DNA of 34,747 bases, taken from positions 1 to 34,747 of the forward strand of contig JARKOL010000371.1 in NCBI GenBank assembly GCA_029975745.1. Reading direction: 5' to 3'. Positions within the stretch are counted from its first letter, which is position 1. Every line of letters begins with the position of its first letter. Made by a program: the position numbers and the translations under genes. This document shows, one piece after another, positions 759 to 15,952 of this stretch. The stretch comes from Myxococcota bacterium (GTDB lineage Bacteria > Myxococcota_A > UBA9042 > DTJE01). The notes under the pieces were generated by a model. It was not told where the DNA came from. It did no database searches and saw only the letters and a list, made by a program, of their open reading frames with translations.

Positions 759-2069
759 CTACAGCCGGAACGAGAAGTCCATGGCGATGTGGGTCATCGA
801 CCCGTGTCCCTTGCCGTTGACCGGCGGGTTCAGGATCGACGTCTGGATGTTCAGCAGGTCGTACCAAGTCCGCTGGAATGTCAGGCCGACCGCCAGCCAG
901 TTCAGCGCGCGCCACCGCACGCCGCAGGACACGCCGTGGTGGCTGCGGGTGATGTTGTCCAGAGACAGCGTCCGGTCCGGAATCGGGGTGGTGTCCCGCT
1001 GGTAGCCGACCATCACGTCCACGGCGTCAATCGGTCGGTAAAGGAGGCCGGCGCTGATGTTCCAGGCGTTCTTGTAGGCCTTCGGCGTCCGCTGCTCCTT
1101 GATGCCGTACAGCGGCGTGTCCAGCTTCATCACCTGTTCCTGCAACACCTGGTAATGCCAGTAGAAGAAGTCCAGCCCCAGTTCGAACCCGGGAGCAACC
1201 TCCCAGTTGATGCCGCCCCGCAGCGTGAACGGGATCGCCATGGTCGTGGTCTGCCGGGACTTGCCGCCGCCACCGGCCGTCGGTGTCGCCTTGATGTCGC
1301 CCTTCATCTTGACGTCGGCGCCGCTGATGAAACTGAAGCCCAGGCCCAGCGTCTCGATCGGCTTGATCAGGATTCCCACGTTCCAGTCCCAGGTCCACCC
1401 CTGGCTGACCAGGTCCATCTTGATGTCCTGGGAACGGACCGCGTCGGACGCATCGAACCGCATGTCCGGATCGGCCGAAACCAGCGGATTGAAGTACTGC
1501 TGGCCTTGCATCCGCATGTACACCGCGCTGATGCCCGCCCCGACGGACAGGTGCTTGGTGAACTGGTACGCCAGGGTTCCGGTCATGTGCAGCGCCGCGA
1601 AGAAGCCCTGGGTCAGGTGGTACCGGGTCGGCCCGTTCTCGGGCAGCGACGCCCCGTACAGATTGGGCGCGTAGACCGCCAGGCCGCCGCGCAACTTCTT
1701 CGTTCCGAAGTCCGTGCCCACGCCCAGGAACGGCAGGATGCCCCAGGACTGCTTGGGGGTGATCTCCTTGTCCGGCTTCAGTTTGCCCATCGAATCGTAG
1801 AAGCGGAACCCCAGTTCCACCTGGGTGTACTGCCCGGCCAGATACAGGTTCGTTCCCTCTTGCAGCGTCAGGCCCGCGGGGTTGTGGAAGATCGCCGTCA
1901 CGTCGTCGGGCTTGCCCATCACGGCCATCATGCCGCAGCGGCGCGTTCCGAAGTCGGGGGTGTGGAAGCCGCCCGCCAGAACATCCCGAGAGGGCGATAC
2001 CAAACTCGCCGCGCAGACGACCGCCGCGACAAGCCACCTGCCGAAGCGCGGCGCGAACAATCCAGTCAT
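759..2069 (-). CDS. FadL/OmpP1-family outer-membrane channel
   Basis: 436-residue outer-membrane beta-barrel of the FadL/TodX family, which passes long-chain fatty acids or other hydrophobic compounds across the outer membrane. An N-terminal signal peptide covers about residues 1-32 and ends in VLA before GGFHTPDFG. The family's NPAGL motif is at residues 63-67, in the plug-like N-terminal region. The rest is alternating beta-strand sequence, and the protein ends in Phe-Arg-Leu, as expected for a barrel C-terminus. Length fits the family (about 400-470). I chose the ATG at 2069 because GGGAG and ACGAGG precede it; an in-frame TTG at 2090 would add seven residues but has no advantage. A promoter lies at 2108-2136. 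The substrate cannot be read from the sequence. Confidence 0.9.
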   Translation of the reverse strand: MTGLFAPRFGRWLVAAVVCAASLVSPSRDVLAGGFHTPDFGTRRCGMMAVMGKPDDVTAIFHNPAGLTLQEGTNLYLAGQYTQVELGFRFYDSMGKLKPDKEITPKQSWGILPFLGVGTDFGTKKLRGGLAVYAPNLYGASLPENGPTRYHLTQGFFAALHMTGTLAYQFTKHLSVGAGISAVYMRMQGQQYFNPLVSADPDMRFDASDAVRSQDIKMDLVSQGWTWDWNVGILIKPIETLGLGFSFISGADVKMKGDIKATPTAGGGGKSRQTTTMAIPFTLRGGINWEVAPGFELGLDFFYWHYQVLQEQVMKLDTPLYGIKEQRTPKAYKNAWNISAGLLYRPIDAVDVMVGYQRDTTPIPDRTLSLDNITRSHHGVSCGVRWRALNWLAVGLTFQRTWYDLLNIQTSILNPPVNGKGHGSMTHIAMDFSFRL

Positions 2070-2107
2070 CCTCGTGCTCCCGTATTTCAAGGGCTCCGGG
2101 CGTCGGG

Positions 2108-2136
2108 ATGCTAGTACGCGGGCCGTTCCAGGTCAA
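2108..2136 (-). promoter_or_regulatory. Sigma70-like promoter of the FadL-like gene
   Basis: On the minus strand, TTGACC (2131-2136) and TAGCAT (2108-2113) are separated by 17 bp. They lie about 40 bp upstream of the ATG at 2069, so the leader would be about 30 nt. Confidence 0.55.
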
Positions 2137-2239
2137 CGCGCCAACCGCCCACTCGCCGCTCCAATCCGCAGCGCCGACACGGATCCGACAACTTCCGCGC
2201 GAAAACACCCCCTCCCCCCATGGTCCCACGACGACGTGT

Positions 2240-2248
2240 TGGTATAAT
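2240..2248 (+). promoter_or_regulatory. Extended -10 promoter for the 2288-4177 operon
   Basis: TGGTATAAT is a perfect -10 hexamer (2243-2248) with the TGn extension. No good -35 element is seen 17 bp upstream, as is usual for extended -10 promoters. It lies 39 bp upstream of the ATG at 2288. Confidence 0.5.
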
Positions 2249-2287
2249 CCGCCGCGGCGTTCTCTGCCGATTCTTGGGAGGCGGACG

Positions 2288-3055
2288 ATGAGGATTCGGT
2301 TCCTTGCTGCCCTGGTGGCGCTGACTTCCTTGGCATGGTCCGGGTGCGGCATCGACGAGTACTACACCGGCATGGGCCAGGGCGCCCTGCCCGGCGACCC
2401 ACTCTACCGGGTGCCCGACGTCTTCGTGGCGGGAGGCTGCGGCCTCGCCGAGGCCAACACGGCACCGGTGACCGTCCCCAGTCTGGTGGGCCAAGCCTTC
2501 CGCTTCGACAGCCTGGCTCTGACGAAGCCGCTGCCGGACTCGCTGTCGGCCATGGTCAACCCGGTCATCCAGGACCAGATGGACACGGCCATCATCAACG
2601 TGCTCCTGGTCGTCGATCGTGACGACCGCAACTCCCAGGAGATGACGTTCCGCCTGGGCGCCGCCGACCCCGCGGGCGAGGCGTTCCGTCTGACCGGAAC
2701 TCCCGCGTCCACCGACGCGACGATGGTCGATGGCCGCTTCGACTTCACGGGCCGGGGCGAGGTCGTCATCAGCGTCGATCTGGGCACCGAGAAGCTGCTG
2801 CTGCCCGTCAAGGCCGTCGAGTTGTCCGGGCTGATCGCCCCCGACGGTTCCCAGATCGGACCCGGCATCCTGAAGGGTGCATTGACGGAAGCCGACGCCG
2901 AGACGGTCGAAATCCTGGGCTCCAGCCTGAAGGACTTCCTGACCGGAACGAACCCGCCGATCCTGCCCGACCTGGACCTGGACGAGGACGGCACCAACGA
3001 CGCCTGGCTGTTCGAGGGGTGCTTCACCGCGACCCCGGTCACCCTGGCCCCCTGA
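2288..3055 (+). CDS. Predicted lipoprotein of unknown function
   Basis: 255 residues. The start is the ATG after GGGAGG at the right spacing. A short basic-hydrophobic signal is followed by Cys20 (AWSGC, a slightly unusual lipobox because Trp occupies -3). The mature protein contains a beta-rich domain with a VNPVI motif, a segment ILKGALTEAD, and a C-terminal Asp-rich stretch (DLDLDEDGTNDAW) ahead of the conserved-looking end. Segments match in order those of the lipoprotein at 12057-13232 (VNP..., then G-x-L-x-G-x-LT-x-x-E), so the two probably share a domain. It is followed after 24 bp by the lipocalin-like gene, probably in one operon. Location is inferred to be the periplasm or cell surface, membrane-anchored. 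Confidence 0.75.
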   Translation: MRIRFLAALVALTSLAWSGCGIDEYYTGMGQGALPGDPLYRVPDVFVAGGCGLAEANTAPVTVPSLVGQAFRFDSLALTKPLPDSLSAMVNPVIQDQMDTAIINVLLVVDRDDRNSQEMTFRLGAADPAGEAFRLTGTPASTDATMVDGRFDFTGRGEVVISVDLGTEKLLLPVKAVELSGLIAPDGSQIGPGILKGALTEADAETVEILGSSLKDFLTGTNPPILPDLDLDEDGTNDAWLFEGCFTATPVTLAP

Positions 3056-3079
3056 TTCCCCCACGAACCGGAGAAGCCC

Positions 3080-4177
3080 ATGCGAACCAGTCGAGTGTGC
3101 GTGTTCCTGAGTGCCGCCCTGTCGCTGGTCTTCCTCGCCCCGGCCCAGGCGAAGGTGACGACGGACAAGAAGGGCGCCGCGATGCAGCGGACCACGATGG
3201 AAGACTTCATGCGGCATCCGGCCGACGGGCGCTACTACACCGAGTCCTGGACGACGATCCTCCAGTCGGACGCGGGCCACGTCCTGTACATCAACTTCAT
3301 GTACAGCAACATCGGCGTCGTGTCCGGACGCGCCGCGGTCGATGTCAGTCTGACCGAACCCGGCGCCGAGGGCCGGCACTTCGGCTGGGAGTCCGACCAG
3401 GCCGACTTCAAACAGGACCCGGAGGCCGGGCGCATCACGATTGGCAAGGACTCGATCACACTGAAGAACGGCAACCTGCACATCGTCGTGGATCACGCCG
3501 ACCTGCGCCTGGACGTCCGGATGAAGGCGTGGACACACGGGGTCAAGTACTACGACGGCATCATCTGGCTGACCGACGACCGATCCGAATTCGTGCAGGC
3601 GTTCTTCCATGTGCCGCGCGGGGACTTCACCGCCGAGGCGGCCATGGGAGGCAAGCGGTTCACGATGAAGGGCGCCGGCTACATGGATCACATGGTCAAC
3701 AACCGCCTCAGCAGCGAGTGGTCGGACCGCTGGTGGACCACGCGGTTCTTCGCGCCGGACCACACCGTCGCCTTCTGGGCGTTCCGGATGCGCGGCAAGC
3801 ATGGCGGCCAGACGATCGTCCGCAGCCTGGTGACCGATCGGACCAAGGTGCTGACCCTGACCGACCGGTTGAAGGTGAAGGGCGAGGCCCCGGCGCAGGA
3901 CCCCAAGCCGAAGGGCCACAAGTACGACACCCGCTACCGTCTGTCGCTGGATCGGAAGGGCCTGAAGCTGGAGGGGGACCTGACGTCGCGCCGCGTGCAT
4001 GACCGCAACGCCGTGGTCGAGCGCCTGCCCTGGGCCCAGCGAAACATCGCCCAGATGGTGGCGGGCAATCCGGTCATCTATCGGATGGAAGGCGACGCGA
4101 ATCTGGTGCTGACCGTGGAAGGCCAGGACCCGATCCCCCTGACGGGCACGGCGCTGATGGAATCCATCGTCAACTGA
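3080..4177 (+). CDS. Secreted lipocalin-like protein (AttH/CrtC/Svf1 type)
   Basis: 365 residues with a cleavable signal peptide ending AQA (about residues 1-24). The start ATG follows GGAGAAG. The mature part is all-beta in appearance, with repeated aromatic strands. A central segment GYMDHMVNN followed by WSDRWWTTRFF resembles the GY-x-DH-x-W signature of the double-lipocalin families that include AttH, hydroxyneurosporene synthase CrtC and Svf1. Some of these bind or modify hydrophobic molecules. The DH pair is present, but the usual Trp after it is displaced. It lies 24 bp after the upstream lipoprotein and converges on the next gene. Binding of a lipid-like ligand is inference; the family assignment is moderate. 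Confidence 0.65.
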   Translation: MRTSRVCVFLSAALSLVFLAPAQAKVTTDKKGAAMQRTTMEDFMRHPADGRYYTESWTTILQSDAGHVLYINFMYSNIGVVSGRAAVDVSLTEPGAEGRHFGWESDQADFKQDPEAGRITIGKDSITLKNGNLHIVVDHADLRLDVRMKAWTHGVKYYDGIIWLTDDRSEFVQAFFHVPRGDFTAEAAMGGKRFTMKGAGYMDHMVNNRLSSEWSDRWWTTRFFAPDHTVAFWAFRMRGKHGGQTIVRSLVTDRTKVLTLTDRLKVKGEAPAQDPKPKGHKYDTRYRLSLDRKGLKLEGDLTSRRVHDRNAVVERLPWAQRNIAQMVAGNPVIYRMEGDANLVLTVEGQDPIPLTGTALMESIVN

Positions 4178-4207: not shown

Positions 4208-5290
4208 TCACGGAAGGGCCAGGAAGCCCAGGTCGATCGAGCCGTCCACGAAGTTTTCGTTGATCCGCGACACGCACTCGTTGATCGCCGACACGGACAG
4301 CGAACCGCCGCATCCACCCAGGATCACGTGCCCCAGATCCAGCACCTGCGCCACGGTCAGCCCCAGGCACGCGCTGGTGGGATCCTGGACGACCAGGCTC
4401 GCCAGCGGCACATCCGACGCCCCGAAGTCAGGCAAGCACTCGTCGAAACCAACGTTCAGCGCCAGGGCAAGAACCTGTCCGGCCAGCACTCCACCGCTGG
4501 AGGACAACGGATCCACCGCCGACTCCACCAGGACCCCCGGCGTCCCACCCTGGGGCAGGAAGGCCTGGATCGCCGACGAGGACAGGAACTCCAGCGACGG
4601 CCCCTCGGCGCAGCCGATCTCGATGCCGCTCGGGAAGCAGCCGGCGAAGTTGGCATCACGGAACGCGCCGGGATTGTTCCCCTGGGCCCCGCTTCCCCAG
4701 CCTCCCTGGGTCTGCGTACGATGAGCCAGTTCCCCGTCCGGCGGAGGCGGCGGGTCGCACGGCTGGACCTGGTACCGGATGTACGTCGCCCAGTTCTTCC
4801 CGGGGAACCCCGGTCCGTGGCCCCATCCCGTCTCGCGGGCCAACACCTGGCCCTGATCGCCCGAAAGCACGACGACGGCGTGCGCCGCGATGAACAGCGA
4901 ATCGCCCAGGAAGTCGTCCAGCGGGATCTCGAAGAGCGCGGAGTCGGTCAGCGGATTGAAGACCGACTTGTACTGGAACTGCCCGGGAATCGGGTTCCCA
5001 TTCTTCTGGGGAATGCCAGAGAGCGATTCCGCGACGTGCAGATGCACCTCGGACAGCAACCAGCCACCCGAGGTCCCGTACTCCACGAACAGGGTCGTCT
5101 CGTCGTTCCAGATCCTGACCTCCCCCGCATCGATGTGACGGCCGGCGTACAGCGTCTGGCTCTGGACCTGGCCGCACCCGTGCTGAATCGCCAGCCCCTG
5201 GGCGACGCGACCCGGCGCCTCCTCCGCGCCGCACCCGATGACCAGAACAAGTCCAAGAACCGAAACCGCACCTGCAATCAAGTTCTTCAT
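4208..5290 (-). CDS. Two-domain lipoprotein, probably iron-regulated
   Basis: 360 residues. The start ATG at 5290 follows GGGGAG, and the signal ends in the lipobox VIGC (Cys20). Domain 1 (about residues 45-145) contains GGWLLSEVHLHVA, IPQKNGNPIPGQF and LFIAAHAVV, a pattern I recognise from uncharacterised secreted proteins of several phyla. A proline run at about 180-184 links it to domain 2 (about 190-290), which opens with RTQTQGGWGS and continues GNNPGAFRDANFAGCFP, a second recurrent module of uncharacterised secreted proteins. The C-terminus has several Cys, possibly disulfide-bonded. A Fur-box match lies about 90 bp upstream and no other gene reads from that region, so repression by iron is inferred. 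Function is unknown. Confidence 0.8.
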   Translation of the reverse strand: MKNLIAGAVSVLGLVLVIGCGAEEAPGRVAQGLAIQHGCGQVQSQTLYAGRHIDAGEVRIWNDETTLFVEYGTSGGWLLSEVHLHVAESLSGIPQKNGNPIPGQFQYKSVFNPLTDSALFEIPLDDFLGDSLFIAAHAVVVLSGDQGQVLARETGWGHGPGFPGKNWATYIRYQVQPCDPPPPPDGELAHRTQTQGGWGSGAQGNNPGAFRDANFAGCFPSGIEIGCAEGPSLEFLSSSAIQAFLPQGGTPGVLVESAVDPLSSSGGVLAGQVLALALNVGFDECLPDFGASDVPLASLVVQDPTSACLGLTVAQVLDLGHVILGGCGGSLSVSAINECVSRINENFVDGSIDLGFLALP

Positions 5291-5378
5291 GGCGAATCTC
5301 CCCGGGCCCAGCCATGGCCCCGTTGATGGCTTCAACAAGTCACCAAGACCGTCGGACGACTGTCTGTTGCGTGACATT

Positions 5379-5397
5379 GACAATGATTATCACTCCC
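5379..5397 (-). promoter_or_regulatory. Putative Fur box upstream of the 4208-5290 lipoprotein
   Basis: The plus strand reads GACAATGATTATCACTCCC, which matches 15 of 19 positions of the classical Fur consensus. Bases 5378-5392 (TGACAATGATTATCA) match the 7-1-7 palindrome TGATAATnATTATCA with one mismatch. It overlaps a minus-strand GATAAT at 5386-5391 that could serve as a -10 element, in an AT-rich island within a GC-rich region. The remainder of 5291-5530 shows no gene. Inference from motif only. Confidence 0.5.
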
Positions 5398-5530: not shown

Positions 5531-7390
5531 TCAGACGCTTGCCGCCACCACCAGGCGCTCGGCCAGGGTGAGCAGGTCGATCGGCCAGTAGACTCGGGAG
5601 CGTGGGTACCGAGTGGCTGTTCCTGGGAGGGCCCGGGAAGACAGGACCAGATTCCGCCATCGGGCGGGGATGGCGGCGCGTCCGGCGACGGCGCCCAGCA
5701 AGGCACCCGCGATGGCACCGTTCGTGTCGGCATCCCCACCCGCGGCGACCGTGGCCATGAGTCCCCGCTCGAAATCGGGCGCGTGAAGCAGGCGGAAGAA
5801 CGCGTTGCGAAGCGCCACGCGCACCCAGCCCATGTGCGTCATGAAGTCGTCCGGGGGGCCCTGGACCGCGGCCTCGAGGTCCGCGCGGATCAGGGACCCG
5901 GAACGCGTCCGGGAAACAGCCCGCTCCCAGGTGCCGACGGCGGACAAGCCTTCGCGCACCGCTGCGGCGATGGCCACGGCGAAGACCTCGGCGGCCTCCT
6001 GACAGACCGGATGGGGATGCGTCAACAGGGCGTCGGCGCGCGCCGCCGCGGCGGTCTGGTCGTCGGTCCTGCCGGCGCCCCAGACCCCCAGGGGGGCGAT
6101 GCGCATCAACGACCCATTGGCCTGGCTGTCGGGATCGGCGGCCGTCATCGCCGCGAACGCCGCCCTGCCCCGGGCCAGGTCCGAGTCCGTCACGGCCCCC
6201 AGGGCCCTCCGCGTCGTGCTGCCGACATCGAACGCGGGAGACCGAAGCCACGCCACGTAGGCCGCAACGGACCGCTCGGGCGACGGACCGCCGTCGGCCA
6301 CGATCGACCGGGCCAGCATCAGGGCCATCTCGGAGTCATCCGTGGGTTGGCCGGCCAGCAGACGCCAGGTGCCGCCATCCGAGAGATCCACGACCCCCTC
6401 GGGGTGGGCCGCCGCGATCTGGCTGGCGGACAGGAACTCGACCTGCCCGCCCAGGCTGTCCCCCGAGACCAGGCCCAGCAGGCATCCCTGAGCCCGGGAC
6501 AAGACCCCCGCATCGTGAACCACGCTCCCGGGCCGCAGCCGCGTCGGAACCCCGTCGTCGTCGCGGGAGTCCCCGCGTTCGACAGCGCGCGTCCACTCCC
6601 TGCGGGCCAGTTCCCGACACACGTCCAGTCCCCCACCGAAACACCAGCGCACCCGGCTGGAGGCGTCCGGCGCGTACCGAACGGGTTCGCCCTTCTCGTC
6701 GATCAGGTCGCCCCCGCCCCCAAGCAGCAGCGCATGGCCGGCCGCGTAGTCCCAGTCCCCCGGTCCGCTCAGCGAAACGGCCGCCACGGCCTCTCCGGCA
6801 GCGACGAGCGCCAGACGAAGCGCGATGCTGGGCATCGACAGGAAGCGTCCCGGAGCCACGGCCGCCGCGTTTTCGGCCGAGGCCCGGTCCGCGTCCTGAG
6901 ACACGATGACGACATCGGAGGGGCGAAGCACGGGCCCGAAGGACGGCGGCTCGCAGGCGACCCCGTTCCGACGCACCGGACCACACCCCTGGGCCCACGC
7001 GAACAGTTCCCCGTTTCCGTCGGGCCACGTGGGGGCGTACACGACGCCCAGCACCGGGCGCCCCTGCCGTACCAGCGCGATGGATACCGCGGATCCGCGC
7101 ATCCCCCGAAGAAAGGACGCGGTGCCGTCGTTCGGGTCCACGACCCAGATGTCCCGGGCGGCCGACTGGCCGGGCCGGACGCACCCGGTTTCCTCGCCGC
7201 GAAACCCCGTCCCGGGAAAGGCCTGCAGCAGGCGCGCTCGAATCCCCGCCTCGGCCGCGGAGTCCACGGGGGCATGGCCGCCTGCCCCCCGCGGGCCCTC
7301 GGGACGTTCGAACTCGGCACGCACCAGGGCGCCGGCTTCCCGAGCCGCGCCCTCGGCGACCGCAAGCGCCTCCGCGAGTGAACCGACCAT
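5531..7390 (-). CDS. Inositol-monophosphatase-like / ADP-ribosylglycohydrolase fusion
   Basis: 619 residues with two full enzyme domains. Residues 1-265 are an IMPase/CysQ-type Mg-dependent phosphatase: Glu-Glu at 66-67, DPNDGT at 85-90 (the metal site), and GDWDYA at 211-216 carrying the last metal-binding Asp214. Residues 295-619 are an ADP-ribosylglycohydrolase (DraG/ARH fold): GCLLGLVSGDSLGG at 302-315, TDDSE at 350-354, and GGDADTNGA at 551-559. The Asp and Thr ligands of the binuclear Mg site are therefore present (D351, D352, D553, D555, T556). The start ATG follows AAGGAG. No signal peptide, so cytoplasmic. I infer sequential dephosphorylation and ADP-ribosyl hydrolysis of a small phosphorylated ADP-ribose-like substrate or nucleotide, or of modified protein; the true substrate is unknown. 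Confidence 0.88.
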   Translation of the reverse strand: MVGSLAEALAVAEGAAREAGALVRAEFERPEGPRGAGGHAPVDSAAEAGIRARLLQAFPGTGFRGEETGCVRPGQSAARDIWVVDPNDGTASFLRGMRGSAVSIALVRQGRPVLGVVYAPTWPDGNGELFAWAQGCGPVRRNGVACEPPSFGPVLRPSDVVIVSQDADRASAENAAAVAPGRFLSMPSIALRLALVAAGEAVAAVSLSGPGDWDYAAGHALLLGGGGDLIDEKGEPVRYAPDASSRVRWCFGGGLDVCRELARREWTRAVERGDSRDDDGVPTRLRPGSVVHDAGVLSRAQGCLLGLVSGDSLGGQVEFLSASQIAAAHPEGVVDLSDGGTWRLLAGQPTDDSEMALMLARSIVADGGPSPERSVAAYVAWLRSPAFDVGSTTRRALGAVTDSDLARGRAAFAAMTAADPDSQANGSLMRIAPLGVWGAGRTDDQTAAAARADALLTHPHPVCQEAAEVFAVAIAAAVREGLSAVGTWERAVSRTRSGSLIRADLEAAVQGPPDDFMTHMGWVRVALRNAFFRLLHAPDFERGLMATVAAGGDADTNGAIAGALLGAVAGRAAIPARWRNLVLSSRALPGTATRYPRSRVYWPIDLLTLAERLVVAASV

Positions 7391-8308: not shown

Positions 8309-11300
8309 TCACTGGAACGAAGCGAGGGCGACCGAGAAGGACTCCTGGCGATAGTAGCCCGTGTCCGTGGAGGTGAAGGCGTTGATGTCGAATCCGGGCG
8401 ACCGAGAGCAGGTCAGGTTCATTCGCATGGCACCGCCGGGCACCGGGTCGTACCCGAACACCCGGGGAAAGTCCGGAAGTTCGACATCGCGGACCGACCC
8501 GCCTGCGGTGATCACCCAGAAGGTGTACCCGGTGGGACCCGACAGCAGCAGTTGCTGGTAGGAGGGTTCCTGTTCGCCCGACAGCGACCACGCCACCCTG
8601 CGGCGCGACCAGGACTGGTTTTCCACGGGCTCCAGAACCAGGGGAAACCCAAGGAACGCGGGCAACGCCGCGAAGTGACGACCGGCCAGCAGCACCTCGC
8701 CCCCGAACGCGCCCCCCGCCAGCAGGTCCAGGGACACGTCGCGCCGGGACCGGTCCGTGAACGAGACGCAGTCGAACCCGACCACCAGGCCGTCCTTGCC
8801 GAAGACCAGCACGTCGCAGTCCCCCCGACGGACAATCCCGGAAACCTCCCCGCCCCCCGGGATCTGCCAGACCGTCAGTTCGTCGCCGGTCATTCGGATC
8901 AGGGCTCCCTCACGACCAACGGCCCAGATGTCCTCGACCCCCGGGCCATCCAGCGCCACCAGATCCTGAGGCGTCGGACGCGTCACGTCGAATGCCTGGC
9001 CGGCACGCCCCACCACCAGGGCCCCCCCGACACCGACCGCGACCACGCTCCCATCAGCGTACCGGCGGACCGCCCGGACCTGGGTTGCCGACGGCAGCGT
9101 CTCGATCGCGAATCCGCCGGAATCGTACCGCAGCAGGTAGGGCCCGCCCGCGATCGAAAGCTCCGGTTCGCCATCCGGACCCACGACGCCCGAGATCCCG
9201 GTCAGATCGACGGCAACACCCGTGGCGACCTCGTGGACCACGCGGTCCTGGATGCGCCACACGCGCCCCCGGTCGCCGACGGCCCAGAAATCATCCGCCG
9301 ACACCCCCCAGAGCCCCCGGATCGGCAGCCCGGTTCGCATCGGCCCCACATGGAAGTCCATGCCGTCGAACCAGTAGGTGGCGCCGCCGTCGTCCGCGAC
9401 CAGCGCGCCGTCCGGCAAGGACGCCATCGCGGTCACCGCCCGGGGAATCTGGGTCGCCATGGGCATCGGTTCGGAGTCCCCGACGACCAGCACGGGCCAG
9501 GACGACGGCGGCTGCACTCCCGCGGACAGCGTGACCGCGTAGGGCATGCCGTTGGAGGACCGCGCCGACACGGACTGGTAGACCGAGTAGCCGTTCCCCG
9601 CGATGGGGTCCTGGAAGGCCCGGGGTTGCCACGCCACCTTCAATCGATCCGCGCCCACGCGCTCGTACCGTCGGAGCAGGTCCAGATACCCGTCGTCGCC
9701 CAGATGCCAGCCCCCCAGGAGGGCGGGGCCGTTGATTCCCAGCGCGTGGTCGGGCAGGCCCCGAACCGCCAGCCACAGGTCGGCGTCCGTCTCGACGTCG
9801 AGCGCGACATCGACTCCATCGACCGGCGTGTCGCGGCAGATGACCCGGGGCACCATGCCCATGCGAACCATGAATGCCTGCCCCCCGGATGGCGGCATCA
9901 CCATCATGGCGCACACGACGCCGAACTGGCCGCGACGCGTGGCAAGACGGAACCGACCACTCCCATCCACGTAGGCCCCGGGCCCCGGGTCCGGATTGCC
10001 GCCGAACATCGTCTGGGACGAGGTCCAGCACTGGCCGAACGGCGTGCCGTCCGCCCAGGGCGGCTTGATCAGGTACTTCCCGTAGTCCAGGATTCGCCCC
10101 GAAACGGTACAAGACGTTCCGGTCGTGCCCCCTGGGGGATTCGTCGGCGACTCGGGCGAAACCACGGTGCCGACGTAGACCGTCGCGTTGCGCGCGTCGA
10201 ACCCGGCCAGCGAGACCGCGGTGTGAGCCAGGGCGGTCGCATGCACGGCGACCGGCCCGCGGAGATCGTCCGCCGCGAAGGTGATCTGCCCCCGGGAATC
10301 CGTCACCCCCTGGTGCGGCGTGTGCGGATCGGCCCCCAGGCTGACGTAGGCGCCGGGAAGGCCACGCCCCGTCTGGCTGCTGAGGACCGTGACGTTGACG
10401 TCGCCGCGAATCGCGGGCCCCCAGGTCCCGCCCCCGCGCAGCATGGGGTCGTAGTAGCGGAAGGCGCGATCCCGGAAGGCCCCTCCGTTCCCCAGGGCCA
10501 TCACCATGACGGGGCCGGTCTGTTCGGCGCGCGGAGCGACCGCCACCACCGAGACCGACGACTCCACCGTGATTTCCGGGGACTGGACCCCACCGAAGAA
10601 CACCCGTTCCACCCCATCGAGCCCCTGGCCGAACAGGCGCACTCGCGTGCCGCCCCCGTGGGCCCCCGAATCGGGCTCGACGGCCAGGACCGCCATGCCC
10701 GGAGCCTTGAACTCGTACCCGTTGCGCAGAAGCGCCTCGCCCACCGAGACCCGAACGACGACATCCACCGGGCCCGGGCTGCCCTCGGGGGTGCGAACGC
10801 GCAGTTCCGCCTCGGAGACGAAGGTCACGCCGACCGCCGGGATCCCGCCGAACCGGACCGACGCCCCCGGAGCGAACCCCGAGCCAAGCACCCGAACCTC
10901 GCTGCCCCCGCGGGACGGGCCCGAGGCGGGAGACACGGACAGGACCGACAGTCCCGGGATCGACGGGCGGATCCCCTCGTCGTCGAAGACGAAGGCCTCC
11001 CGCAGGACGACCTGCTCCTCGCCGGTCAGGGCGTAGAGCGCAACGGGGCCCGGGGCGTGCGGAGGGGTCAGCGCCAGCACGGTCTGGTCATCGACGACCT
11101 GGGCGGAAACCACCTGCCTTCCCCCAAGCAGGAATTGGGGCGCGTCCAGAAAGCCTGCGCCCCGGATCAGGATGGGCGTTCCGCCCCCCGCGGACCCGTG
11201 GGCCGGTTCGACGGCTCGCAGCGACAAGGCCCGCTGGTAGGTGAAGGCGGCGACCAGGGTGGCGGCAGTCCCATCCCCGCGGCGAACGACCACGTCCACG

Positions 11301-11791
11301 ACGCCCGGCGGACCGGCCGGCACCGTGCAGTTCGCCACGTTCGGCCCCAGCACGAACACGTAGGGCGACGGCCGCCCCCCGAAGCGGACCTCGAGCGAGT
11401 CGTCGAAACCCGTGCCCATCAGGGTGACCGTCCCGGGCCGATCGCTGTCGCCGCGGTCGGGTTCGACCGAAACCAGCGTCAGGAGAGCCGCGGGGGCCTC
11501 GGCATCCAGAGCATCCGGCGTCGCCGGCACGATCCCGTCCGAGCCGCCGGCAACGTCGGTCAGACCGGGCAAGGCGTCCCGGGCGGCATCCTGGGCGACG
11601 TCGCGATCGTCGGGCCCCAGGGCCTCCGATTCGACATCCGCCCCGCCAGTGATCGCATCCAAATCGGGGGTGTGCGCATCGCCGCACCCGGACAGAACCA
11701 GGCCGGCGGCCAGCAACCCGATCGGGACCCGTGCCCCCGGTACGCCACCGGGCACACCCCATCGAGAACGCCTGTCGAGGACTCCGGCCAT
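8309..11791 (-). CDS. Large IPT/TIG-repeat lipoprotein with a propeller-like C-terminal region
   Basis: 1160 residues. The signal ends in the lipobox VLSGC (Cys36), followed by an Asp-rich linker (about 40-100). Four IPT/TIG immunoglobulin-like domains follow (about 104-190, 190-280, 285-370, 370-450), each with the V-x-P-x-x-G-x-x-x-G-G-x-x-V pattern and an F-x-F-G-G or similar strand. Next is a carboxypeptidase-regulatory-like segment (about 460-545, VNVTVLSSQTGRGLPGAYV). A region with WGVSADDFWAVGDRG and EDIWAVGREGALIRM repeats follows, as in beta-propeller-like secreted proteins. Probably a surface adhesion or binding protein. The ATG at 11791 is chosen because the signal begins there; its Shine-Dalgarno is weak (GGTGGAG is about 23 nt away), so the start is uncertain. 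Confidence 0.82.
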   Translation of the reverse strand: MAGVLDRRSRWGVPGGVPGARVPIGLLAAGLVLSGCGDAHTPDLDAITGGADVESEALGPDDRDVAQDAARDALPGLTDVAGGSDGIVPATPDALDAEAPAALLTLVSVEPDRGDSDRPGTVTLMGTGFDDSLEVRFGGRPSPYVFVLGPNVANCTVPAGPPGVVDVVVRRGDGTAATLVAAFTYQRALSLRAVEPAHGSAGGGTPILIRGAGFLDAPQFLLGGRQVVSAQVVDDQTVLALTPPHAPGPVALYALTGEEQVVLREAFVFDDEGIRPSIPGLSVLSVSPASGPSRGGSEVRVLGSGFAPGASVRFGGIPAVGVTFVSEAELRVRTPEGSPGPVDVVVRVSVGEALLRNGYEFKAPGMAVLAVEPDSGAHGGGTRVRLFGQGLDGVERVFFGGVQSPEITVESSVSVVAVAPRAEQTGPVMVMALGNGGAFRDRAFRYYDPMLRGGGTWGPAIRGDVNVTVLSSQTGRGLPGAYVSLGADPHTPHQGVTDSRGQITFAADDLRGPVAVHATALAHTAVSLAGFDARNATVYVGTVVSPESPTNPPGGTTGTSCTVSGRILDYGKYLIKPPWADGTPFGQCWTSSQTMFGGNPDPGPGAYVDGSGRFRLATRRGQFGVVCAMMVMPPSGGQAFMVRMGMVPRVICRDTPVDGVDVALDVETDADLWLAVRGLPDHALGINGPALLGGWHLGDDGYLDLLRRYERVGADRLKVAWQPRAFQDPIAGNGYSVYQSVSARSSNGMPYAVTLSAGVQPPSSWPVLVVGDSEPMPMATQIPRAVTAMASLPDGALVADDGGATYWFDGMDFHVGPMRTGLPIRGLWGVSADDFWAVGDRGRVWRIQDRVVHEVATGVAVDLTGISGVVGPDGEPELSIAGGPYLLRYDSGGFAIETLPSATQVRAVRRYADGSVVAVGVGGALVVGRAGQAFDVTRPTPQDLVALDGPGVEDIWAVGREGALIRMTGDELTVWQIPGGGEVSGIVRRGDCDVLVFGKDGLVVGFDCVSFTDRSRRDVSLDLLAGGAFGGEVLLAGRHFAALPAFLGFPLVLEPVENQSWSRRRVAWSLSGEQEPSYQQLLLSGPTGYTFWVITAGGSVRDVELPDFPRVFGYDPVPGGAMRMNLTCSRSPGFDINAFTSTDTGYYRQESFSVALASFQ

Positions 11792-11968
11792 GGCATTGCT
11801 ACCCGAAAATTCCGCTCCACCGAAGATGATAACTGAAAAGGCGCGCCCGAGGGTCCCGCCTCCCGGAAGGCCGCCTTGCACCGCCGTTGCACCGTTCCGA
11901 ACCCCCTCCCAGGGAGCGTTCCGCCTGGGAATTCCAGGGGCTTCTGTGCGCCGACCCCAAAAATTCCC

Positions 11969-11997
11969 TTGCCATCGCGATCCAAAACGACTATGAT
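11969..11997 (+). promoter_or_regulatory. Sigma70-like promoter of the Cys-rich lipoprotein gene
   Basis: TTGCCA (11969-11974), a 17-bp spacer, and TATGAT (11992-11997), 59 bp upstream of the ATG at 12057. The leader would be about 50 nt. No comparably clear promoter is seen for the divergent IPT lipoprotein within 11792-12056. Confidence 0.6.
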
Positions 11998-12056
11998 GTG
12001 CGCGGTTCAAAGGCAGTCGTCCTCGAACCACGGCTAATTCTTTTGGAGGGTTGGAG

Positions 12057-13232
12057 ATGAAGGTGTTTGCAAAGATCCTGGCTGTCGGGCTGATGTCGGT
12101 CGCACTGACCGCGTTTGTCGCCTGCGACAGCGACGATGGCGGAACCAAGGACAACGGGACCACGCAGGACGTGATCCAGGATCAGGGCACGGAAGATCCC
12201 GGCACGACGACGGACGAGGGCCCGCGGCCTGACAACGCCGTTGAGGATCCGGGCACCGTCGAGGATCCGGGCACGGTCGAGGATCCGGGCACGGTCGAGG
12301 ACGTCCCCTGCGTTCCGCAGTGCGGCATCCGCGTGTGCGGCGTCGATCCCGTCTGCGGCGAGCCTTGCGGCGACTGCGACAAGGGCGAAGTCTGCGACGA
12401 GATCCAGGGCCAGTGCTTCGAGGCCTGCGACTGGGCCGAAGACAAGCCCTCCGAGTGGGGCCCCGCGGGCGTCGTGAGCTACCTGCAGACCCCGGCCAAC
12501 AAGACCGCGGCCGGCGAGGTGTGCTTCGACTACACCGGCGAAGGCACCGGCGACTCCGGCCTGGCGGGCCTGGCCGGCCAGGTCAACCCGGCGCTGGCTG
12601 ACGCCATCTCCGGCGGCGACATCGGCATCATCTTCGAGTTCGGCGACGTCGTGGACTTCACGAACTCCGGCACGTTCACGCTGAACGGCCTGCTGGGCGA
12701 GTCCACCGCGGACCCGGCCGTGGTCGGCGGCGAGTACGACGTCTCCGAGGACGGCTACGTCAAGGAGACCTGCCAGCCCCTGATCTACTTCCTGAACGCC
12801 AAGATTGAAGGCGGCGAGCTGTCCACCCCGAAGAGCCGGTTCTCCCTGTCGATTCCGATCGACGCGAACCTGGTCATCGAGGCCAACCTGATCGACGCCC
12901 AGCTGAAGGGCACGGTCACGGAAGGCGGCGCCGACGGCGTGGTCCTGACGGACGGCGTCCTGTCCGGCGTCCTGACCCGCGAGGAGCTGGAAGGCACCAT
13001 CGACGCCCTGCAGGCGAGCTGCGACGACGCCCCCGAGGGCGAAGAGCCCAGCTACTGCGGCTACCTCGACATGGCGAAGCAGCTGCTGCCGACCCTGTTC
13101 GACCTGCACCGGACCGCGGAAGGCGAGTACTTCGTGAAGACCGCCGCCACCGGCCCGTACCCGGCGAACGCGATCTCCGTGTGCATGACCTACGAACTGG
13201 CCAAGGCCACGGTTCGCGGGTTCGCTCAGTAG
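12057..13232 (+). CDS. Cys-rich lipoprotein of unknown function
   Basis: 391 residues. ATG at 12057 follows TTGGAGGG; an in-frame TTG six bases earlier is less likely. The lipobox is AFVAC (Cys23), followed by an acidic linker with three EDPGTV repeats at 63-80. Residues 85-124 form a compact module with nine Cys (CVPQCGIRVCG onward) of the kind seen in deltaproteobacterial secreted proteins. The rest (about 130-391) is a beta-rich domain resembling the lipoprotein at 2288-3055 (VNPALADAI; GVLSGVLTREELE). With its good promoter and ribosome site and the strong hairpin downstream, it looks like a well-expressed single-gene unit. It is probably exposed on the envelope; function is unknown. Confidence 0.82.
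   Translation: MKVFAKILAVGLMSVALTAFVACDSDDGGTKDNGTTQDVIQDQGTEDPGTTTDEGPRPDNAVEDPGTVEDPGTVEDPGTVEDVPCVPQCGIRVCGVDPVCGEPCGDCDKGEVCDEIQGQCFEACDWAEDKPSEWGPAGVVSYLQTPANKTAAGEVCFDYTGEGTGDSGLAGLAGQVNPALADAISGGDIGIIFEFGDVVDFTNSGTFTLNGLLGESTADPAVVGGEYDVSEDGYVKETCQPLIYFLNAKIEGGELSTPKSRFSLSIPIDANLVIEANLIDAQLKGTVTEGGADGVVLTDGVLSGVLTREELEGTIDALQASCDDAPEGEEPSYCGYLDMAKQLLPTLFDLHRTAEGEYFVKTAATGPYPANAISVCMTYELAKATVRGFAQ
12243..12296 (+). repeat. Three 18-bp tandem repeats in the lipoprotein linker
   Basis: GAGGATCCGGGCACSGTC repeated exactly three times (12243, 12261, 12279), differing at one base in the first copy. It encodes EDPGTV x3. The near-identity indicates recent expansion, and copy number may vary. 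Confidence 0.85.
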
Positions 13233-13411: not shown

Positions 13412-15952
13412 ATGGGGCCGCGACTCGACATCGAGAATCCACGCTGGCGGTCGGCCTGGTGCGTCGCCGCCCGGCTGACCTTCTGGCTTCTTTGCGTCGG
13501 CGCGGGTGCCGGCATCCTGGGTGCTGCGGCCGCGTACCTGCTGCTGGCCCGGGACCTGCCGGTCATCCCCCCCTTCGAGGCCATCCGCTTCGATACGGTC
13601 AGCCGGGTTCGCGCGACGCATGGACAGGTGCTGGCCGAGATGTTCGCCGAGCGGCGCTACCTGGTGCCGGCCGACGAGATGCCGCCGCTGATCGTGCAGG
13701 CATTCCTGGCGTCCGAGGATGAACGGTTCTTCGAGCACTCGGGGACCGACCTCCGGGGAATCGCTCGCGCGGCGGTCACCAACCTTCGGGCCGGTCGGGT
13801 CAAGGAAGGGGCCAGTACGATCACCCAGCAGTTGGCCCGGTCCCTGCTGCTGTCCCAGGAGCGACGAGTCGTCCGCAAGGTGCGCGAGGCCATCCTGGCC
13901 CGACGCATCGAGGACATCTATTCCAAGGACCAGATCCTGACCCTGTACCTGAACCTGATCTTCCTGGGCAATGGCGCCCACGGGGTCCAGGCCGCGTCGC
14001 GCGTCTACTTCGGCAAGGAGCTGGCCGACCTGACGCCCGCCGAGGCCGCCGCCATCGCGGTGCTGCCCCAGTCCCCCGGTTCGGTCACGCCGGTATCGAA
14101 ACCGGACGTGGTGCGCACCCGGCGGGACCACGTGCTGCGACGAATGCATCTGCGCGGATTGCTGGATGACGAGGCGCTCGAAGCCGCGCTGGGCACCGAG
14201 ATCCTGGCGATTCCCGGCCACGATAATCTGGCGGAACGCGCACCGATTCCGGCCACCGAGGTCATGAAGGAGGTCGGTCCGCTGGCCCGACGAGCGTCGA
14301 ACACCCCGATTCTTTCCGGCGAGGGCGGCATCACGGCGGTGGCGACGATCGACCTGGGACTGCAACTGGCCGCCCAGCAGGCGGCTCGCGAGGCTGCGGT
14401 TCGCCTGGCTCGGCGCCAGGGCTATCCGGGCCCGATCGCGCATCTGATTGCCTCGCGATGGGACGAGTTCGCACGACGCAACGCGACGCACCTTGGCGTG
14501 GCGTCCGCGTCGGAACTGCCGCCCCTGGATCCCGTCCTGGCCCTGGCGACCCGCGTCGAGCCCGCGGGCGTCCACCTGATGATCACGCCGCAGATCACGG
14601 GATTCCTGCCGCTGGACCGGATGCGGTGGGCCACGCCCTACTCGGCCTTTCCGCCGGACGCGCCCGACAAGGACCGGGTCCGCGTGTCCCTGGATGGCCG
14701 CCTGAAGTCCGCCGCCGATGCGGTCGCGGTCGGCGACGTGATTCTGGTGCGACCGGCCGGGGCCGAGCCCCCGCCTCGCCGCAGCCGACGGAGCCGCGAG
14801 GCGCCGCCCCCGGAGCCGACCGGATTGCGGCCTGACACGCCACGATTCGAACTGGATGTCTTTCCGGGTCCCCAGGCCGCCCTCGCGTCGGTCGATCCCC
14901 GGTCCGGCCGCATCGTCGCCCTGGTCGGCGGCACCGATTTCGACGTATCGCAGGTCAACCGGAACCAGTCGGTGCGACAGACCGGCAGCGCGATCAAGCC
15001 CCTGTACTACGCGCGGGCCTACGACGCCGGGATCCCGCCGTCCACCGTCCTCGCGGGCACGCCCTACCGGGAGGGGCAGTGGGCGCCCGTCGGCGACGAG
15101 GACTCGACGGACATGACGTTGTACGAGGCCCTCACGAAGTCCGAGAACCGCGTGTCGCTGCGCGTGTACAGGGCCGTTCTGGACGCGGTGGGACTGGACG
15201 GACTGAACGACTGGCTTCGCCGCCTGGGCTGGTCGCGTGCCCTCCAGGGCTACACGCCCGAGGCCCTGGGCGCCGACGCGACGCCCATGGAGATGTTGAC
15301 GGCGTTCGCCACCTTCGCGAATCGAGGCATCACGGTGACCCCGCATCTGGTCCGCGAGGTCCGGGACTCGACCGGACGCCTGCTGGTCGATCGGCGCTCG
15401 TCGCGAGATCCCGCCGTCCCCCTGCTGGACGCCGTGGCTCGCGAGATCGCCAGCCCCAGCGAGGACGCCCGACGGGTCCTGACGCCCCAGAGCGCGTACC
15501 TGATCGCCCACAACCTGCGCAACGTCGCCGAGGAAGGCACCGGACGCACCACCCGAAAGCTGGGGCGCCCCGTCTGCGGCAAGACCGGCACCCTGCCCTT
15601 CGACGTCTGGTTCATCGGCTGGACGCACGAACTGGCGACCGTTTCGTGGCTGGGCCAGGACCGACGCGAACGCTGGCTGGGCCGCACCAAGTCCTCGGGT
15701 CGCGTCTTCGGCGCCGACACCGCCCTGCCCGCGTGGATGGACTTCATGACCGTCGCCACGGCCGAGCTGCCGGTCATCGACGACCTGGAGGTGCCGCCGG
15801 AGGGCATCACGATGGTCGATATCGACCCCTCGACCGGCCTGCTGGCGACGTCGGGAGGCATGACCATGCCGCACCTGTCGGGAACGGAGCCGACCGACGC
15901 GGCCCCCGAGGCCGGCACCGTGGCCGCGGACGCCGAGGCGGCCGCGTTCTAG
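13412..15952 (+). CDS. mrcA: Penicillin-binding protein 1A (class A, bifunctional)
   Basis: 846 residues. Polymerises lipid II into glycan strands and cross-links the peptides in the periplasm. One N-terminal membrane anchor (about 22-47). GT51 transglycosylase at about 65-245: EDERFFEHSGTD with catalytic Glu102, then EGASTITQQLAR and FLGNGAHGVQAAS. An OB-like insert follows (about 380-460). Transpeptidase: TGSAIKP with nucleophile Ser526 and Lys529, SEN at 577-579, KTG at 724-726. All catalytic motifs are intact. A basic/proline-rich patch lies near 450-470 (PPPRRSRRSREAPPP), and the tail is Ala/Glu-rich. ATG follows GGAGCAAGCC. A TAGAAT at 13373-13378 may be its -10, without a good -35. The symbol follows the PBP1A/mrcA type; another class A paralogue is possible. 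Confidence 0.93.
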   Translation: MGPRLDIENPRWRSAWCVAARLTFWLLCVGAGAGILGAAAAYLLLARDLPVIPPFEAIRFDTVSRVRATHGQVLAEMFAERRYLVPADEMPPLIVQAFLASEDERFFEHSGTDLRGIARAAVTNLRAGRVKEGASTITQQLARSLLLSQERRVVRKVREAILARRIEDIYSKDQILTLYLNLIFLGNGAHGVQAASRVYFGKELADLTPAEAAAIAVLPQSPGSVTPVSKPDVVRTRRDHVLRRMHLRGLLDDEALEAALGTEILAIPGHDNLAERAPIPATEVMKEVGPLARRASNTPILSGEGGITAVATIDLGLQLAAQQAAREAAVRLARRQGYPGPIAHLIASRWDEFARRNATHLGVASASELPPLDPVLALATRVEPAGVHLMITPQITGFLPLDRMRWATPYSAFPPDAPDKDRVRVSLDGRLKSAADAVAVGDVILVRPAGAEPPPRRSRRSREAPPPEPTGLRPDTPRFELDVFPGPQAALASVDPRSGRIVALVGGTDFDVSQVNRNQSVRQTGSAIKPLYYARAYDAGIPPSTVLAGTPYREGQWAPVGDEDSTDMTLYEALTKSENRVSLRVYRAVLDAVGLDGLNDWLRRLGWSRALQGYTPEALGADATPMEMLTAFATFANRGITVTPHLVREVRDSTGRLLVDRRSSRDPAVPLLDAVAREIASPSEDARRVLTPQSAYLIAHNLRNVAEEGTGRTTRKLGRPVCGKTGTLPFDVWFIGWTHELATVSWLGQDRRERWLGRTKSSGRVFGADTALPAWMDFMTVATAELPVIDDLEVPPEGITMVDIDPSTGLLATSGGMTMPHLSGTEPTDAAPEAGTVAADAEAAAF

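Follow-up and report, generated by a model that had tools for sequence, protein, structure and literature searches.

The window is an entire contig of 34,747 bases from a draft genome that is 87% complete. On its reverse strand lies a gene (5531..7390) that encodes, from an ATG start, a chain of 619 residues with the same architecture as its relatives. The frame contains no internal stop or frameshift over its 619 codons and both Pfam matches lie far above the curated cut-offs, confirming the single two-domain chain proposed in the first-pass annotation. The N-terminal part (residues 6-239; 6674..7375, on the reverse strand like all features of the gene) is an inositol monophosphatase (IMPase) domain (Inositol_P, PF00459; E = 1.5e-31), and the C-terminal part (residues 302-577; 5660..6487) is a DraG-type ADP-ribosylglycohydrolase (ARH) domain (PF03747; E = 3.1e-60). 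Comparison of subfamily motifs identified the metal/phosphate motif DPNDGT (residues 85-90; 7121..7138). In addition, alignment located D214 of WDYAAGH, in the GDWDYA region, as the third metal ligand of the IMPase site (6749..6751), together with the TDDSE (residues 350-354; 6329..6343) and GGDADTNGA (residues 551-559; 5714..5740) motifs of the ARH di-metal site. The four motifs named earlier were therefore found where they had been claimed, and both sites are complete.

An AlphaFold2 model of the fusion, computed from an input alignment of 27 fusion sequences, had a mean pLDDT of 94.3 and a pTM of 0.94. Foldseek matched one half of the model to SuhB-type IMPases and the other half to DraG, with a TM-score of 0.88 on the target. 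The pLDDT blocks delimited the end of the phosphatase fold and the linker (residues 240-293; 6512..6673), and lower confidence was limited to approximately residues 271-290 (pLDDT 62 for 271-280 and 85 for 281-290). Public records label the fusion 'inositol monophosphatase family protein', thereby hiding the ARH half. PHROGs profiles match the ARH half only, and PADLOC contained no defence model for the whole fusion protein. A profile search detected no ARH gene in the source genome other than this one.

The neighbours of the gene in the window encode a lipoprotein-like protein (4208-5383), for which no Pfam or PDB relatives were found, a TIG-domain protein (8309-12163) and a penicillin-binding protein (13412-15952). 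The TIG-domain protein, encoded on the reverse strand, has 1284 residues with IPT/TIG domains and is probably a surface or secreted protein. The 365-residue product of a forward-strand gene (3080-4177) has a match to the lipocalin-like Svf1 C-terminal domain, which is known chiefly from fungi. No WYL, Nudix or defence gene was present among the scanned neighbours, and no TY-type chaperone, restriction enzyme or helicase was seen beside the fusion; the WYL pair of the source genome lies on a different contig. The window copy is an orphan, and this chromosomal locus shows the enzyme itself with no partner gene.

The family position of the phosphatase half was evaluated against curated models. 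It belongs to the Inositol_P superfamily (110.3 bits for PF00459 against a cut-off of 27, with E67, D85, D88, T90 and D214 present), and its fold and metal ligands are like those of SuhB/IMPase, CysQ and the IMPase-like histidinol phosphatase HisN. However, it scored far under the cut-off of each of these families: 78.2 against 228.8 bits (TIGR01331) and 64.1 against 379 bits (NF008182) for CysQ, 69.6 against 275.15 bits for HisN (TIGR02067), and 45 against 332 bits for the SuhB/IMPase model. The earlier CysQ-type label, at 78 bits where 229 are needed, is consequently dropped. In the tree, the phosphatase halves group together as one clade, from which six generic IMPases are separate (SH-aLRT 100). 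The third position of DP[NHQ]DGT is N, H or Q in 58 of 60 clade members, whereas it is I, L or M in generic IMPases, and R98, W132, R192 (K in the six generic IMPases) and H219 are also shared by clade members; DP[NHQ]DGT, R98, R192 and H219 differ from SuhB/IMPase, CysQ and HisN as well. D214 was present by inspection in 67 of 68 alignment rows, with L016, L018 and L031 set aside, and was invariant in alignment A2. By these sequence characters, the IMPase half of the fusion is a subfamily of its own. Solo phosphatases of the fusion clade, approximately 40-45% identical and annotated as inositol monophosphatase, also occur on large Pseudomonas-type plasmids (L130-L133 and L173).

The ARH half likewise belongs to its superfamily (ADP_ribosyl_GH, PF03747: 204.7 bits against 26.2, with E318, T350-D352, D553, D555 and T556 present). 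DraG is the closest characterised protein in both fold and sequence and has the ARH fold and the di-metal ligands in common with it, but the identity is 27%, the score falls under the DraG family cut-off (TIGR02662, 141.4 against 337.05 bits), the genome lacks DraT and a phosphatase is fused on. The ARH immunity protein Tri1 also has this domain (NCBIfam match E = 9.5e-24; PDB match 6e-18), but the fusion scored 84 bits against a Tri1 cut-off of 490 and comes without a toxin partner. Moreover, 39 solo ARHs form one clade (support 99) nested among the fused ARHs, for which loss of the phosphatase and its exchange are alternative explanations. An NAD-dependent DNA ligase gene immediately precedes one solo ARH (L035:5838-8942, Rhizobium sp. 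BK376), and a SIR2 family gene immediately precedes another (L040:7118-8924).

The full fusion was present in 30 of 379 Myxococcota genomes, as counted from match spans, and two of the 30 belong to the host's own family. A cross-phylum scan of one genome per species recovered full-length relatives with 41-56% identity in Chloroflexota, Myxococcota, Acidobacteriota, Pseudomonadota (Ruegeria) and unplaced bacteria, and plasmid-borne fusions were found in Azospirillum, Rhodobacter and Pseudomonas luteola. The domain-architecture search that had been proposed as a check thus returned the same fusion in Myxococcota, in other phyla and on plasmids. A stop or frameshift between the domains, named beforehand as a refuting observation, occurs neither in the window frame nor in the recurring relatives. 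An assembly or frameshift artefact, or a chance joining, was ruled out because the same stop-free two-domain chain recurs in many genomes, in other phyla and on plasmids. Among 50,697 records of a phage collection there was no full fusion and only two short partial matches; one viral-type contig (L156) carries a full fusion beside McrBC and a repressor-like gene. On the evidence of the phage records, a phage-borne gene was rejected.

The phylogenies place the fusion as one ancient clade. In genomes G284 and G252, a basal IMPase of the fusion clade and an ARH of the fusion kind are encoded by separate, unlinked genes, likely the pre-fusion state; IMPase and ARH genes thus travel together even when unfused. 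Two further observations concern individual copies. Metagenome-assembled genomes titled Burkholderiales (L006) and UBP9 (L004) carry nearly the same fusion, with the next gene 81% identical, which suggests that a bin label or a contig could be in error. In G016, a 944-residue frame (L099:7956-10790) carries a region like DHH/DHHA1 phosphoesterases, below the Pfam cut-off, before the IMPase and ARH domains.

Conservation of the two active sites was assessed in an alignment of 35 fusions. The IMPase ligands E66/E67, D85, D88, G89, T90 and D214 and the ARH ligands E318, T350-D352, D388, D553, D555 and T556 were all invariant or nearly so. In a residue audit, both sites were complete in 44 of 53 fused copies, or in 42 when ARH D388 was also required. 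These alignments support selection on both active sites. The exceptions are of two kinds. In three fusions of one Chloroflexota clade (L016, L018 and L031), the phosphatase ligands are gone but the ARH site is still complete. Conversely, ARH ligands are missing from L112, L117, L120, L121 and L126, all of which retain the phosphatase site, L122-L125 and L154 keep the phosphatase with a C-terminal part reduced to a remnant, and the four Pseudomonas-type plasmid genes L130-L133 encode the phosphatase alone; L023 is incomplete only through the end of its contig. Mapped on the phosphatase tree, the ARH state required a minimum of nine changes, although many forks are weakly supported and the true number may be lower. 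Loss of ligands in close homologues, the other refuting observation named beforehand, was therefore seen in part: most fused copies are intact at both sites, but the ARH site was lost repeatedly and the IMPase site once. Either head is thus dispensable, and the two are not obligatorily coupled.

This reciprocal decay also bears on how the heads would work together. According to the first-pass annotation, joining these domains would imply that a single compound passes through both reactions in succession. Sequential action is possible, but the reciprocal losses weaken it, and the fusion as such does not imply it. The losses are what would be expected if one chain carried two independent activities, with the phosphatase serving its own pathway (pAp-like or sugar-phosphate) and the ARH acting as an accessory or scaffold that is often lost. 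Consistent with this explanation, the IMPase is intact in each of the copies that lost the ARH ligands or domain, the solo ARHs are nested among the fused ones, and the three Chloroflexota copies are dead only in the IMPase. However, the copies intact at both sites come from several phyla, the IMPase and ARH also occur together as an unlinked pair in G284 and G252, and no pathway gene is common to the neighbourhoods. We therefore regard independent activities as a tentative alternative.

No operon common to the fusion loci across phyla was found, and most chromosomal loci lack a conserved neighbour; a conserved cross-phylum operon was accordingly rejected. Associations nevertheless appear in the contexts of relatives, which were gathered at a few loci. 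Four Myxococcota genomes, all from the same family, have a WYL/PafC-type pair immediately upstream of the fusion, and in three of them (G213, G360 and G362) this pair gives the only WYL matches of the genome. By locus, a WYL gene adjoins the fusion in L107, L114, L118, L119 and L127, and a Nudix domain is found beside it in L129 and L156. On the Rhodobacter plasmid L129, the Nudix gene starts 8 bases past the fusion. In L156, the fusion is followed by a 437-residue protein that corresponds to the L129 Nudix gene plus the next L129 frame, and then by McrC and McrB genes, which were identified by eye and partly by homology. The Nudix protein is thus split over two overlapping frames in L129 (7698-9018) and is a single 437-residue frame in L156. 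A search with the Nudix protein gave, as the best plasmid relative outside Rhodobacter, a gene on Aeromonas pE31A, in a locus ordered WYL, ARH, hypothetical, Nudix, DUF262 and SNF2. The pE31A WYL protein is 45% identical to the WYL protein near the P. luteola plasmid fusion.

Further defence-type genes accompany the fusion at individual loci; defence genes are common on plasmids. A TM0106-type RecB-like nuclease-helicase lies near the fusion in L127 and L129. In Myxococcota G256, one frame of 2078 residues (L112:7494-13730) combines the IMPase domain, a partly degenerate ARH, a RecB-like region and SF1 helicase domains, and a McrB homologue adjoins it. In Ruegeria (L015), genes for a CBASS-type cyclase, an E2 and a phospholipase lie downstream of the fusion, and L004 and L006 carry near it a YbjN-like gene that matches TY-Chap1 weakly. 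Four fusion copies of alphaproteobacterial type have a divergent recombinase-like gene with them. On an Azospirillum brasilense plasmid (L134), a second, distant ARH and two genes for calcineurin-like phosphoesterases lie upstream of the fusion (1285-4066), and a NERD/UvrD helicase and a DUF2779 protein are encoded downstream.

These contexts were compared with a predicted class of bacterial systems. Gene-neighbourhood analysis predicted that ARH/ARG systems reverse virus-inflicted ADP-ribosylation, with a phosphatase, WYL or Nudix regulators, TY-type chaperones, restriction enzymes and helicases as partners (Iyer, 2022, Viruses; PMC9503650, section 3.8). A WYL or Nudix regulator occurs in over 42% of the published systems, and the phosphatases named are of the rhodanese-type, calcineurin-like, HD and HAD families; the word 'inositol' is absent from the text (PMC9503650). 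The fusion couples an ARG/ARH domain to a phosphatase in one protein, as these systems do in the same or an adjacent protein, and its relatives adjoin WYL or Nudix genes, restriction enzymes, helicases and a YbjN-like gene. In contrast to the published systems, the phosphatase is of the IMPase type and the window copy stands without any partner gene. Scans for the DarT and DRAT families found no linked transferase: both are missing from the source genome, and DarT is unlinked to the fusion throughout the 30 fusion genomes.

As the mobile relatives show the predicted associations one by one and the published text names other phosphatases, we propose that the fusion may be a bifunctional ADP-ribose-clearing enzyme, an IMPase variant of the ARG-centred counter-ADP-ribosylation systems, with a probability of about 50%. 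In favour of this reading we counted both folds, the near-invariant ligands, the supported clade, the unlinked pair in G284 and G252, the contexts of relatives and the published prediction (PMC9503650). Against it we counted the envelope-type neighbours in the window, the lack of a cross-phylum neighbour, contexts drawn from few loci, the losses of either head and the lack of a PADLOC model.

According to this proposal, the gene would encode a soluble, two-headed enzyme. The C-terminal DraG-type head would hydrolyse the alpha-linked bond of an ADP-ribosyl group carried by a macromolecule or a small molecule. As part of the same clean-up, the N-terminal IMPase-type head would take a phosphomonoester off the acceptor, the released nucleotide or a sugar. 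The Nudix protein encoded next door in relatives could split ADP-ribose further. With the IMPase as its coupled phosphatase, the enzyme would thereby reverse ADP-ribosylation or eliminate ADP-ribose signals when bacteria and mobile elements are in conflict. We infer the activity of both heads, their chemistry, the substrate, the order of steps and the role in conflict. The Nudix and WYL contexts of relatives indicate ADP-ribose chemistry and agree with the earlier suggestion of a candidate substrate containing ADP-ribose. It is also conceivable, though doubtful, that the IMPase subfamily evolved with the ARH and that both heads successively destroy a novel ADP-ribosyl compound bearing a phosphate, such as a phosphorylated ADP-ribose signal or mark that a mobile element or its host produces.

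The chief rival is a housekeeping function, which would account for the chromosomal copies without conserved neighbours. The fusion could repair damaged NADP-type nucleotides, the IMPase removing the 2'-phosphate of alpha-NADP(H) or 2'-phospho-ADP-ribose and the ARH splitting alpha-NAD into nicotinamide and ADP-ribose. This would explain why a single compound has both a phosphate and an alpha N-glycosidic bond; the Nudix neighbour fits as well. ARH1 and ARH3 hydrolyse alpha-NAD+ (PMC9738213), and the IMPase family includes NADP phosphatases, one of them, MJ0917, fused to NAD kinase (PMC8553519). MJ0917 thus offers the precedent of an IMPase domain with reported NADP phosphatase activity joined to an NAD-related enzyme, although its partner is a kinase and not an ADP-ribosyl hydrolase. 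However, the patchy distribution (30/379), the plasmid copies and the defence neighbours are unlike housekeeping, and one head has repeatedly been lost, which makes such repair unlikely.

Action on the by-product of KptA/Tpt1, or on ADP-ribosylated RNA phosphate ends, with the ARH removing ADP-ribose and the IMPase the remaining phosphate, is far less plausible. ARH-like enzymes do act on RNA ADP-ribosylated at phosphate ends (PMC11833690), and full-length KptA was more frequent in fusion genomes (12 of 30) than in the remaining genomes (53 of 349), with an odds ratio of 3.7 and p = 0.0017, uncorrected for ancestry or genome size. But KptA was seen adjacent to the fusion nowhere and is absent from the window's genome and from all fusion genomes of its class, on which ground an obligatory KptA partner was rejected. 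Reactivation of a DraT-modified host protein by the fusion, acting as a regulator like DraG, is scarcely credible and largely refuted already, since the closeness to DraG in fold and sequence stands against a score of 141 where 337 bits are needed, no DraT partner (PF07357, DRAT family) was found in the source genome (G000, 87% complete), and the DRAT family is missing from 29 of 30 fusion genomes, the source genome among them.

In the open literature, we found no description of an IMPase-ARH fusion and no paper in which ADP-ribosylglycohydrolase and inositol monophosphatase are named together. Each of the two folds is already known, as is the concept of phosphatase-coupled ARH systems; the IMPase-type fusion is the new part. 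For most bacterial ARH proteins, to our knowledge, no substrate has been established. The recurring fusion with an IMPase subfamily, together with the Nudix and WYL neighbours, leads to a concrete and testable list, namely ADP-ribosyl compounds that bear a phosphate as well. Relatives that have naturally lost one head are ready-made comparison partners for deciding which activity matters. If the conflict reading is true, the fusion would add a new phosphatase type to the predicted class of bacterial counter-ADP-ribosylation systems.
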